Source: Bacteroidota bacterium (GTDB lineage: Bacteria; Bacteroidota; Bacteroidia; Bacteroidales; Lentimicrobiaceae). From it: DNA of 38,958 bases. Where the stretch lies: positions 1 to 38,958 of the forward strand of contig WSXU01000033.1 in NCBI GenBank assembly GCA_009773455.1. The letters are read 5' to 3'. The translations under genes were made by a program, and so were the position numbers. Under the pieces are notes generated by a model. That model was not told the origin of the DNA and did not search any database. It worked only from the letters and a program-made list of their open reading frames with translations. Position 1 is the stretch's first letter. Each line of letters starts with the position of its first letter. This document shows positions 36,381 through 38,958 of this stretch, piece by piece.

Positions 36381-36866
36381 TTATCTGTATAACAGTACTA
36401 CCGCCCAGGCCTGTATACCTTCCTCACGACCGGTAAAACCCAAATGTTCGGTAGTGGTGGCTTTCACCGAAACCGTTCCTTCTTCAGAAGCTGTAAGCTG
36501 CTGTATCTGTAACACCATTTCATCAATAAACCCTGCGATTCTGGGTTTCTGAAGGGCAACAGTACAGTCGATGTTTCCAACTTTCCATCCATCTGCTCCA
36601 ATCAGTTTCATTGTTTTTTCAACCAGTACCCGACTATCGATATCTTTATAATCAGTTGAAGTATCAGGAAAATGATGTCCGATGTCTTTCAGACCTGCAG
36701 CACCTAAAAAAGCATCACAAATGGCATGCAACAGCACATCAGCATCTGAATGTCCAAGTGCTCCCTTGTTGTGTTCAATCCTGATTCCGCCAATGATCAG
36801 TGGCCTTCCTTCAACCAGTTGATGCACATCATATCCGAATCCTATCCTGTATGGGAACATAGCCAT
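36381..36866 (-). CDS. ispF: 2-C-methyl-D-erythritol 2,4-cyclodiphosphate synthase
   Basis: 161 residues, normal length. Active-site motifs are RIGFGYDVHQL with the zinc-binding Asp and His, GHSDADVLLHAICDAFLG, GLKDIGHHFPDT, and the C-terminal SVKATTTEHLGFTGREEG. It makes the cyclic diphosphate of the MEP isoprenoid pathway. M3 is an alternative start. Followed at 12 bases by the FemAB-like gene. Confidence 0.97.
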   Translation of the reverse strand: MAMFPYRIGFGYDVHQLVEGRPLIIGGIRIEHNKGALGHSDADVLLHAICDAFLGAAGLKDIGHHFPDTSTDYKDIDSRVLVEKTMKLIGADGWKVGNIDCTVALQKPRIAGFIDEMVLQIQQLTASEEGTVSVKATTTEHLGFTGREEGIQAWAVVLLYR

Positions 36867-37113: not shown

Positions 37114-37188
37114 GGGAGCATAGCTCAGCTGGTTCAGAGCACCTGCCTTACAAGCAGGGGGTCACAGGTTCGAACCCTGTTGCTCCCA
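37114..37188 (+). tRNA. tRNA-Val (anticodon TAC)
   Basis: A complete 75-base cloverleaf. The acceptor GGGAGCA pairs with TGCTCCC, the D-arm contains AGCTGGTTCAGAGC, the anticodon arm CCTGC-CTTACAA-GCAGG holds TAC, and the T-arm is ACAGG-TTCGAAC-CCTGT. The discriminator is A, then CA follows, so CCA is not fully encoded. The 3' part of this gene and its terminator are repeated twice downstream. Confidence 0.96.
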
Positions 37189-37215
37189 CAAAGAAGCCAC
37201 TTAACGTGGCTTTTT
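37169..37215 (+). repeat. 47-bp direct repeat, copy 1 (tRNA-Val 3' end plus terminator)
   Basis: It runs from the T-loop of tRNA-Val through the terminator stem into the T-tract. It is identical over 47 bases to 37742-37788, 573 bases downstream. The layout resembles attachment-site duplication at a tRNA 3' end. Confidence 0.9.
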
Positions 37216-37216
37216 T
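37194..37216 (+). terminator. Terminator of tRNA-Val
   Basis: AAGCCAC and GTGGCTT form a 7-bp stem with loop TTAAC, followed by T-residues through 37216. It begins a few bases after the tRNA. Confidence 0.85.
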
Positions 37217-37222
37217 CCGTTT

Positions 37223-37677
37223 ATGCCATTTCTATATATATTATATAACTGTTGTCCGGTTAAATTTTATTGAATATTCTGTAATGCTTGATATATCTCG
37301 TCCCTAAGGGACTTATGTTAAATGGGGGTTACTTTTTATTCTACCAAAATATCGTCCCTCTGGGACTGTCCCGTTAGGGACCCCGCCATGGCGGGGGTAG
37401 AGTCCCGTATGGGACGAAATATATTTTTTACCGGACAATAATAATTTTATATTCTGAAAATCTGGACAAGTATTATGTTGGTTCAACCAATGATACTGTT
37501 GAGGAAAGAGTATACAAACACAACAACAGTCATAAAGGATTCACTTCAGTAGCTTCGGACTGGCATCCTGCATATTCGGAATACTTTACAGACTATCCAG
37601 CAGCGCTGTTAAGGGAGAAAGAGATAAAAAGGTGGAAGAGTCGCAAAATGATAGAACGATTGATTAATCCTTTATAA
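37223..37677 (+). pseudogene. GIY-YIG nuclease gene, interrupted and without a usable start
   Basis: Bases 37441-37677 encode the body of a small GIY-YIG protein: ILYSENLDKYYVGSTND with the YIG half-motif, an EERVYKHNN segment with the catalytic-type Arg, KGFTS, and LREKEIKRWKSRKMIERL with the Glu helix, ending at TAA 37675-37677. The frame upstream has no ATG, GTG or TTG before a stop at 37375. At 37223 an ATG begins MPFLYILYN, the expected N-terminus with the GIY-type tyrosine, but in another frame. Between the two halves lies the 187-bp palindromic element, so the gene appears split by insertion. The intact family is 80-100 residues and common in Bacteroidota. Function in this copy is presumably lost. 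That 37223 is the original start is an inference. Confidence 0.75.
37252..37438. mobile_element. 187-bp palindromic repetitive (REP/MITE-like) element
   Basis: Terminal inverted repeats TTGTCCGGT (37252-37260) and ACCGGACAA (37430-37438) bound a segment packed with short palindromes. These are GTCCCTAAGGGAC (37300-37312), GTCCCTCTGGGAC (37354-37366), GTCCCGTTAGGGAC (37368-37381), CCCCGCCATGGCGGGG (37381-37396) and GTCCCGTATGGGAC (37402-37415). An outer inverted repeat of about 20 bases (ATATCTCGTCCC near 37293, GGGACGAAATAT near 37411) folds the whole element. It has no coding capacity, so it would be non-autonomous. No exact target duplication is seen. Confidence 0.7.
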
Positions 37678-37764
37678 GCTGGTTCAGTGCATCCCGACTG
37701 GAAGTCGGGAGGGTCACAGAGCCTGTCCCGGATTTTCGGGATTCGAACCCTGTTGCTCCCACAA
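37677..37764 (+). pseudogene. Chimeric tRNA-like sequence derived from tRNA-Val
   Basis: It directly follows the GIY-YIG stop codon. AGCTGGTTCAG (37677-37687) matches the tRNA-Val D-arm, GGGTCACAG (37711-37719) the variable region, and 37742 onward the T-loop and acceptor 3' half. The anticodon arm is different (CCCGA-CTGGAAG-TCGGG, with GGA in anticodon position). A 22-base insert with its own TCCCG/CGGGA stem sits in the T-stem. The 5' acceptor strand is missing. It cannot be a normal tRNA. Confidence 0.75.
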
Positions 37765-37788
37765 AGAAGCCACTTAACGTGGCTTTTT
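37742..37788 (+). repeat. 47-bp direct repeat, copy 2 (tRNA 3' end plus terminator)
   Basis: Identical to 37169-37215 and includes a second terminator hairpin (AAGCCAC 37767-37773, GTGGCTT 37779-37785, T-tract to 37788). It closes the unit carrying the GIY-YIG gene. Confidence 0.9.
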
Positions 37789-37801
37789 CTTATTTATACA
37801 A

Positions 37802-37866
37802 TGTCCGGCATCTCCAAGATCCGAACCCTGTTAAACCTACAAAAAAAAGCCACTTAATGTGGCTTT
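37802..37866 (+). repeat. Third, decayed copy of the tRNA-end/terminator module
   Basis: Bases 37818-37866 align with the 47-bp repeat with several substitutions (CCGAACCCTGTT then AAGCCAC-TTAAT-GTGGCTT). The similarity extends upstream to about 37802 into the T-stem insert of copy 2 (about 22 of 29 bases by eye). It is therefore a descendant of a copy-2-like sequence, not of the plain tRNA. Confidence 0.7.
37841..37865 (-). terminator. Terminator of porV, formed by the decayed module
   Basis: On the minus strand AAGCCAC and GTGGCTT form a 7-bp stem with loop ATTAA, followed by a run of eight T. It lies 23 bases beyond the porV stop codon, so a repeat remnant seems to serve as the porV terminator. 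Confidence 0.75.
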
Positions 37867-37888: not shown

Positions 37889-38958
37889 TTATTTTGCCGA
37901 TTGCTTCTGGAAAGCATCAAAATCGAAATGCAGGGTAAACCTGAGTGTATTTTCGAGTGGGTTATTGGCCTGACCACCTGTAGGAATGAGGTAAGCAAAA
38001 TCAAGTCCGAATACATTATACCGAAGACCGGCACCAAGTGTGAAGAACTTCCTGTTACCCTTGGTTGAGTGCTCATTAAAATAACCGCCCCTGATGGCAA
38101 ACTGCTTGTCATACCAGTATTCCACACCAACAGCGATGGCAATTTCGTGCATCTCTTCCTTGAATCCGCCCGGAGCATCATAGAATGACTGAAGCATACC
38201 GGCAGGCACTGAAACATCGGGATTCATCCCGAATTTAATAACCCCATCGCCATTACCATCAACTGAATCAAGGTAGTAAACCGGAGGGGTCGGAATCAGC
38301 AGTTTATTGATATCAACCATAAACGAAAGCCTGTTGTAATCATCAACATCGAGTGTCAGCGATGGACCTATCCGGAGGTTAGTGGGGATAAAGTCGCGCT
38401 CTGTATTGGTTGAGTAGGAAATCTTTGCACCTATATTACTGATGTTCAAACCCCAGGCGAAATAACCCTCCATATTTTTAAACTCAAGGTCATGCCTCGA
38501 ATAAACGGCAATATCAGCAGCATATGTATTCCCGGGCTTAGTGGCAGAGCCGCTTACTTCCTGGCCCTGGGTAAGGTTGGAATGAATGTATCGTGCGGTG
38601 ATCGCCCCTGACAGGTTATCGGTTAGTTTCCTTGAATAACCTCCGGTTAAGGCGAATTCGTTCGGCCGGAAATTTCCTATAGTTTCACCCTGAATATCGG
38701 TAAAAGTAATGTCACCCAAAGAGAAGTAAAGCAGTGATCCGGAAATAACCTGATCGTTCGCCAGTTTTTTATAACCGGTCAGATAAGCAAGGTTGATATC
38801 ACTGACCAGCGCCCTTAACCAGGGGCTGTATGACAGAGAAAATCCCATATCACCATCAATGTAGGTATATTTCGCCGGATTCCAGTGTAATGAATTGGCA
38901 TCCGGGTCTGATGAAACCCCAACCTCTCCCATTCCACCGGCACGTGCATCCGGGGCTA
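37889..38958 (-). CDS. porV: PorV, T9SS outer membrane protein (5' truncated by the window)
   Basis: 355 residues are visible and the frame is open to the window edge; the Met at 38932 is internal. The edge encodes APDARAGGMGEVGVSSDPDA, then NSLHWNPAKYTY, the classic start of mature PorV (LptO/PG27). It goes on as a FadL-like barrel (LSFSLSYSPWL-type strands, AITARYIHSNL, FAIRGGYFNEHSTKGNRKFF, TLGAGLRYNVFGLDFAYLIP) and ends TLHFDFDAF. PorV shuttles substrates from the SprA translocon to the attachment complex in type IX secretion. The signal peptide and probably porU lie outside the window. Confidence 0.95.
   Translation of the reverse strand, partial: APDARAGGMGEVGVSSDPDANSLHWNPAKYTYIDGDMGFSLSYSPWLRALVSDINLAYLTGYKKLANDQVISGSLLYFSLGDITFTDIQGETIGNFRPNEFALTGGYSRKLTDNLSGAITARYIHSNLTQGQEVSGSATKPGNTYAADIAVYSRHDLEFKNMEGYFAWGLNISNIGAKISYSTNTERDFIPTNLRIGPSLTLDVDDYNRLSFMVDINKLLIPTPPVYYLDSVDGNGDGVIKFGMNPDVSVPAGMLQSFYDAPGGFKEEMHEIAIAVGVEYWYDKQFAIRGGYFNEHSTKGNRKFFTLGAGLRYNVFGLDFAYLIPTGGQANNPLENTLRFTLHFDFDAFQKQSAK

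Follow-up and report, generated by a model that had tools for sequence, protein, structure and literature searches.

Integrative elements that encode a tyrosine recombinase insert at tRNA genes and restore the tRNA, duplicating its end as a direct repeat. GIY-YIG endonucleases are also tied to tRNA targets when they are encoded by group I introns in tRNA genes. In T-even phages, the GIY-YIG homing endonuclease SegB lies near tRNAs and drives tandem amplification, according to the available portion of one source (PMC13096335), and the available portion of another describes fungal mitochondrial mORFs at atp6, atp9, cox2 and nad3 of Glomus, citing a further case at atp6 of Allomyces (PMC3630166). 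Here, we examined a stretch of 38,958 nucleotides (the window) from a Bacteroidota bacterium, in which an intact tRNA-Val gene is followed by GIY-YIG nuclease sequence and further copies of the tRNA end. We put at roughly 75% the probability that this locus is a decayed copy of a minimal homing-type element, one of a family that resides at tRNA genes and consists of a GIY-YIG gene and a pseudo-tRNA, a reading drawn from sequence comparison.

The tRNA-Val locus of the window

The unit comprises the following features.

37114..37189, + strand: intact tRNA-Val(TAC), the host gene of the putative element (ARAGORN; Rfam tRNA 73.5 bits; locus L006)
37194..37216, + strand: first terminator-like stem with T run, 3' of the intact tRNA (sequence)
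37223..37250, + strand: 5' remnant of the GIY-YIG frame, ATG and about nine codons, before the interruption (read by eye)
~37244..37446, + strand: palindrome-rich MITE-like repeat inside the nuclease gene, bounds approximate (repeat search, genome copies)
37441..37677, + strand: rest of the GIY-YIG nuclease frame, without start codon, stop included (Pfam PF01541, E 2.8e-11)
37677..37762, + strand: pseudo-tRNA-Val (sequence, repeat and hairpin analysis)
37767..37788, + strand: second copy of the terminator, which with the T arm makes an exact 47-bp repeat (sequence)
~37802..37865, + strand: third copy of the tRNA end, decayed, with its own terminator (repeat families D1, D2)

The sequence contains all the parts recognised by the first-pass annotation: the tRNA-Val, the GIY-YIG frame, the perfect 47-bp repeat at a distance of 573 bp and, beyond it, another copy that has decayed. 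The exact repeat runs from T loop to terminator and pairs 37169-37215 with 37742-37788 at a spacing of 573. The annotation took this segment to be the copied part; the 47 bp are indeed exact, but the copy begins further back, in the D arm, and contains two hairpins. Its D-arm start (37677-37691) is 93% identical to 37127-37141, and the pseudo-tRNA-Val proceeds from this D-arm part through a hairpin, the variable loop, a second hairpin and the T arm to the acceptor 3' strand. The first hairpin, TCCCGACTGGAAGTCGGGA at 37692-37710, stands where the anticodon arm would be, and the second lies inside the T arm at approximately 37725-37741.

The small GIY-YIG gene reported earlier is borne out by the domain match, but it is split by the palindrome-rich repeat and the remaining frame lacks a start codon; the ORF list contains no ATG-, GTG- or TTG-started ORF for the nuclease and no large ORF inside the unit. 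Because the repeat splits the frame near its start, the window nuclease is most likely dead, and this copy is most likely a pseudogene, a decayed member of the family. The N-terminus of the 5' remnant resembles that of an intact relative in G001 (L040). The interrupting repeat, about 200 bp long, has an inverted repeat at its ends (37238-37264 and 37426-37452), and other copies in the source genome (G000) are 98% identical over 158 bp, 97% over 155 bp and 84% over its length. Copies are located on contigs C5, C40 and C68 (18373-18597), and weaker ones occur in G073, G076, G011 and G006. The near-identical repeats of the locus are better explained by local amplification and decay than by the separate insertions (at least two) proposed earlier.

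In the window, tRNA-Val separates an ispF gene (36381-36866) from a PorQ-like gene (37889-38932). The two genes are close together on the same strand in seven relatives from the order, and ispF has the opposite orientation in six members of the genus, suggesting local rearrangement at the tRNA. The gene labels used here (ispF, PorQ, carbonic anhydrase, uxuA/cutC-like, recombinase, excisionase) are provisional assignments, in part read by eye.

Recurrence of the unit and its association with tRNA genes

The source genome has nine PF01541 matches, two of which are parts of large proteins. We take these two to be UvrC-like and an exonuclease fusion. Four of the seven stand-alone genes closely follow an intact tRNA (Pro-TGG, Arg-ACG, Val-TAC and Pro-GGG); in the Pro-TGG and Arg units, the tRNA is repeated as a copy further downstream, and the Pro-GGG unit runs into the contig end. 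A fifth gene (L004) follows a 16-nt tRNA-Asp 3' end; the tRNA-Asp gene itself is about 8.4 kb away, beyond an island (C62:80300-89500, L359) in which no integrase is evident by eye and which seems to have used this tRNA when the unit was already in place.

Across 21 genomes (the source and 20 relatives), 18 of 39 stand-alone GIY-YIG matches have an ARAGORN tRNA at most 450 nt upstream on the same strand. Units were also found in an order sample of 60 genomes (stand-alone rows taken among the matches listed), among named genomes (20 loci), in a phylum sample of 99 genomes (loci given and rows chosen by rank) and in five complete genomes. Stand-alone sets were selected by frame length, which excludes UvrC-like and exonuclease-fusion proteins and a few long frames, and copies were scored by local alignment with a threshold of 15, array members being counted singly. 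The first-pass annotation had suggested searching for GIY-YIG genes at tRNAs that are followed by a matching copy. After cleaning, the pooled set (223 sequences, the order and phylum parts among the matches listed) yields 102 such units at tRNAs of 15 isotypes, in 59 genomes or records. Cleaning took out four duplicate records (L199, L202, L205, L209), together with three rows in which the copy overlaps a different called tRNA; the uncleaned set holds 109 units and 16 isotypes. Two loci set aside, L017 and L203, probably represent genuine units in which the copy was itself taken for a tRNA. A candidate in Moranibacteriota (L218) was rejected as a false copy between two ordinary tRNAs. The tRNA-first arrangement of the window locus, which the annotation described, is that of 83 units (form A); mirror-image elements with the intact tRNA downstream of the nuclease also exist (form B, 19 units).

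Units occur in Bacteroidota, related phyla and one candidate-phylum MAG (Parcubacteria, L208). Named records with a copy include Aquimarina, Cyclobacteriaceae, Crocinitomicaceae, Ignavibacterium, Chlorobi, Zixibacteria and Parcubacteria, and in Parapedobacter and Rhodohalobacter the gene sits at a tRNA with a copy that scores below threshold. The family profile matched in 64 of the 99 sampled phylum genomes, an upper bound for tRNA-linked units because related subfamilies match it too. Units are about 345-620 bp long with a nuclease gene of some 80-100 codons, and in form A the tRNA and the nuclease match are separated by a median of 51 nt (105 rows, before cleaning). Nucleases also stand in tandem arrays with tRNA-like pieces between them, four genes in G130 (L331, C34) and three in G153 (L332); G130 has 22 profile matches in total.

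Controls on the tRNA association came from three sequence-built subfamily profiles, h1 to h3, with a search that favours h1 by design. Since training rows were hand-picked by known linkage (h1 linked, h2 and h3 without tRNA), only held-out rows count. Among 155 held-out h1 rows, which include the duplicates L205 and L209, 117 are tRNA-linked; the remaining 38 have no called tRNA nearby (10 with short flanks, 28 without). A matching copy, for which the annotation had suggested a check, is found for 95 of these 117, and the other 22 lack a recognisable one. At least two h1 subclades seem to be without tRNA linkage. With duplicates removed and training rows included, linkage holds for 129 of 168 h1 rows and a clean copy is present for 102, and a tRNA on the opposite strand in the same intervals was found for 0 of 174 h1 genes. 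The related small GIY-YIG subfamilies h2 and h3 occur in the same genomes and differ in that none of their 27 held-out rows (three with short flanks) is at a tRNA; the notion that all small GIY-YIG genes are tRNA-linked was thus rejected. We take h2 to be the YhbQ/COG2827 group.

The copies belong to the tRNAs beside them. In one set, the copy matches its own tRNA above every tRNA of another isotype at 25 of 31 loci; in a second set, three of whose loci also occur in the earlier sets, its own tRNA is best at 30 of 35 (two ties, and three lower with another tRNA downstream). A chance repeat was rejected, the copies fitting the adjacent tRNA better than others. For tRNA-Pro, -Asp and -Val, 45 orthologous sites were compared within the genus: a tail copy is present at 11 of 12 sites with a downstream GIY-YIG gene, the twelfth having only 200 bases before the contig end, and at 4 of 33 sites without one, three of these resembling hairpin relics and one being a tRNA cluster. 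Pseudo-tRNA-Pro sequences without a nuclease gene in G005, G072 and G001 (L143, L146, L147), hairpin-like where read (G001, G005), are probable relics. In G005 and G072, a recombinase-like gene directly follows tRNA-Val (L178, L179); about 11 kb beyond it in G005, close to ispF, is a relic of a pseudo-tRNA-Val.

The family encodes the domain of a homing nuclease class, PF01541, with conserved core residues, the window copy itself being broken. In 14 aligned proteins, Y16, G18, H31, E63 and K67 are invariant and R27 is nearly so, positions that presumably include catalytic residues. The solved structures nearest to the family profile are the UPF0213/YhbQ-like small GIY-YIG proteins 1zg2 (E 7.1e-19) and 1ywl (E 2.1e-13). 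Where dN/dS could be estimated, the values indicate that the nuclease is under purifying selection: 0.07-0.12 in unsaturated interspecific Asp and Pro pairs (6 of 26, the rest being saturated), 0.28 in one Asn pair and 0.13-0.19 within three tandem arrays, with 0.50 for one Asp pair in a single array (L168a/b). Nuclease lineage follows tRNA isotype. The nearest cross-family relative has the same isotype in 52 of 102 cases (51 of 105 before cleaning), whereas label shuffles that count related rows as independent average 8.8 and reach at most 22, and with one row per family and isotype the match is 37 of 73 (shuffle mean 5.9, maximum 20). Such tracking suggests that the specificity of the nuclease matches the invaded site; about half of nearest relatives differ in isotype, and therefore switching or mislabelling also occurs. 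One query protein gave two weak phage matches and one weak match in a plasmid collection, and with one query per collection a phage or plasmid is unsupported as the usual vehicle. Four family proteins scanned against PHROGs gave a single weak match (E 2.8e-4).

Hairpin-marked copies, empty sites and rival explanations

The first-pass annotation had the unit carrying a tRNA end, but the copy usually extends to the D loop or beyond and is often disabled by a perfect hairpin that interrupts one arm of the tRNA or stands in its place. In copies from tRNAs of up to 79 nt, with three overlapping-copy rows included, form A (n=68) mostly lacks the first 17 positions and mostly retains 45-76, and form B (n=15) retains 1-27 and mostly lacks the last 20. 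A hairpin arm of at least 7 is present in 53 of 83 copies, and the mean arm is 6.8 versus 4.5 in shuffles. Where copies with an arm of at least 6 are listed (again including the three overlapping-copy rows), the hairpin often keeps one position per isotype: Val hairpins stand at positions 28/46 in 6 of 9, two of the six being tandem copies; Pro hairpins at 27-28/45-46 in 6 of 11, in both forms; Lys hairpins at 25/43 in 3 of 3; and Asp hairpins at 50-51/59-60 in 5 of 10. In Arg form B, the hairpin is a pure insertion after position 21 or 22 in 6 of 7 copies, and five of these insertions, from five families and four anticodons, are CCTGCCTGCCGGCAGGCAGG or a close variant; Arg form A copies have other hairpins at other places. 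Positions are more scattered in Asn, Met, Gly and Ser. The palindrome TCCCGA..TCGGGA occurs at 19, 41, 4, 20 and 11 places in five genomes versus 0-3 for a control. As a tRNA-only signal it was rejected, being frequent elsewhere in the genomes, and because it recurs in this way (19-41 places in three of the five genomes), the hairpins may be partly a general genome feature. One pseudo-tRNA still scores 48 bits as a tRNA.

As the annotation had proposed, relatives were compared for empty sites, and orthologous ones were found at tRNA-Arg, -Asp and -Val. At tRNA-Arg(TCT) in the genus of G084, all three states are represented: G179 is empty, G177 and G178 have form A (intact tRNA, nuclease, hairpin-marked copy), and G084 and G176 have form B (hairpin-marked 5' part, nuclease, intact tRNA). 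The flanks of the five sites are alike by eye (left in four of five, right in all five). The G178 nuclease is matched in three overlapping pieces and may be frameshifted. At tRNA-Asp, G001 is filled and G007, with a similar downstream gene, is empty; at the tRNA-Val beside ispF, G001 is filled and G011 empty. Thus, the element is inserted at or beside its target, and alleles lacking it exist. The pseudo-copy is altered by its hairpins, and the intact tRNA-Asp of the filled site is identical in sequence to the empty-site tRNA.

Terminators add a second line of evidence. At tRNA-Pro in G000 and G011, a new terminator follows the intact tRNA and the most distal copy has the terminator type of the empty G012; here, a new gene end has come with the element and the native one has been displaced. 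At tRNA-Asp, terminators are mixed, in reciprocal combinations among G006, G012 and G076. That terminators differ between the intact tRNA and the displaced copy implies insertion, not simple duplication, at those sites. The tRNA-Pro(TGG) allele (L135-L150) is common to the unit-bearing G000, G006, G011 and G076 and the empty G012, and differs strongly from the allele of 11 other genus genomes; a PorQ tree, run to ask whether the divergent allele had moved with the unit, has long branches.

These observations weigh on the possibility that a host tRNA-nuclease pair was merely duplicated in tandem by unequal crossing over, without mobility and with a cellular role for the nuclease. Near-identical tandem arrays are common (G001 Val, 348 bp; G011 Asn, 390 bp; G032 Val, three 354-bp units), dN/dS is low, and the two terminators match at G001 Val, G001 Asp, G006 Pro, G076 Pro and the window Val, all as such a history would predict; the matching-terminator sites are compatible with local amplification and, taken alone, with duplication. 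We nevertheless consider this explanation unlikely in view of the filled and empty states of orthologous sites in the same genus, the differing and reciprocally combined terminators at tRNA-Asp and tRNA-Pro, the similar nucleases at the same isotype across families, and the two mirror forms. A role in defence or regulation, in which nuclease and hairpin-marked pseudo-tRNA together guard either the cell or its tRNA locus, for instance through cleavage of incoming DNA with the same tRNA sequence, would also fit the low dN/dS, the retained structure of pseudo-tRNAs and the isotype tracking. It appears improbable to us: the units are patchy and decay, their arrays and relics are typical of selfish DNA, islands are present at the same tRNAs, and in two proteins scanned against defence families the sole match was weak and partial (PDC-S14, E 3.1e-4).

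The scar of a tyrosine-recombinase element, with the repeats as attL and attR and the nuclease as the last surviving cargo gene, would explain the choice of tRNA 3' ends, which are classic attachment sites. By eye, the 8.4 kb between tRNA-Asp and the GIY-YIG unit in the source genome include an HTH excisionase-like gene, and the gene after tRNA-Val in G005 and G072 appears to encode a recombinase. We regard this origin as highly improbable. The annotation was right that no integrase is present: the units read carry the nuclease alone between tRNA and copy, with no recombinase, and an integrase footprint was rejected on this ground. In addition, the copies cover either the 5' half or the part from D loop to 3' end, with hairpins at regular places, and the islands sit between tRNA and unit and look like separate events.

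A proposed cycle and its relation to known systems

Returning to a minimal homing-type element at tRNA genes, the central idea of the first-pass annotation, a selfish nuclease with a spare tRNA part that restores its target, gains from the many sites, matching copies and empty sites and from the missing recombinase in the units examined, although the copied part and the arrangement are wider than it supposed. We propose that the nuclease would cut the cognate tRNA gene on an element-free chromosome, near the place that the hairpin occupies in the pseudo-tRNA, and that the break would be repaired from the element-bearing copy through tRNA homology on either side. In the product, the nuclease would stand between an intact tRNA and a copy marked by the hairpin. 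Depending on which side of the hairpin the crossover falls, form A or form B would result; repeated cutting or unequal exchange could produce tandem arrays, and dead units would decay, as may have happened in the window. The cycle presumably includes a route between cells. The hairpin would represent an altered target that protects the second copy from the nuclease. The intact tRNA of a filled site should still be cut, because at tRNA-Asp its sequence equals that of the empty site.

Because tRNA genes are indispensable and leave little room for sequence change, a selfish nuclease directed at them needs unusual target restoration and self-immunity, and the hairpin-marked copies suggest a solution to both. 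We see roughly even odds for the broader proposal that these units form an undescribed class of minimal mobile elements with isotype-specialised lineages, in which the hairpin-marked pseudo-tRNA is a protected, recombination-ready copy of the target, and which ranges across Bacteroidota and Chlorobi/Ignavibacteria relatives to at least one bacterium of a candidate phylum. If so, they would be among the smallest elements that could be autonomous (one gene of about 85 codons, in units down to about 345 bp). The family is common, would account for odd tRNA fragments and small GIY-YIG genes beside tRNAs, and may supply natural, isotype-specific small DNA nucleases.

Compared with tyrosine-recombinase elements, the units read are without a recombinase and have a single small nuclease gene, hairpin copies and both orientations of restoration. 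Unlike in group I introns, the tRNA is uninterrupted; an intron was rejected, since Rfam searches at eight loci, the window's included, returned only tRNA families above threshold. A literature search for bacterial units of this kind, incomplete in coverage, found no description. SegB and the free-standing GIY-YIG endonucleases of T4 type share a gene position beside tRNAs, implication in the cutting of tRNA-containing DNA, amplification and many isotypes (PMC13096335). They differ in being phage-borne and in favouring no isotype, and the available portion of that source describes no hairpin-marked pseudo-tRNA, target restoration or isotype-specific lineages (PMC13096335). In mORFs, as in our units, an endonuclease ORF brings a replacement gene end and the native end is displaced downstream as a duplicate; their targets are mitochondrial protein-coding genes, the endonuclease is mostly LAGLIDADG (GIY-YIG in atp9), and no hairpin-marked copy figures in the portion of the source at hand (PMC3630166). 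Here, the target is a tRNA gene in bacteria, with 15 isotypes represented, and restoration may concern either end. The units look like a family of minimal selfish elements that appears undescribed, combining traits of mORFs and SegB on bacterial chromosomes with a hairpin-marked copy and isotype tracking.
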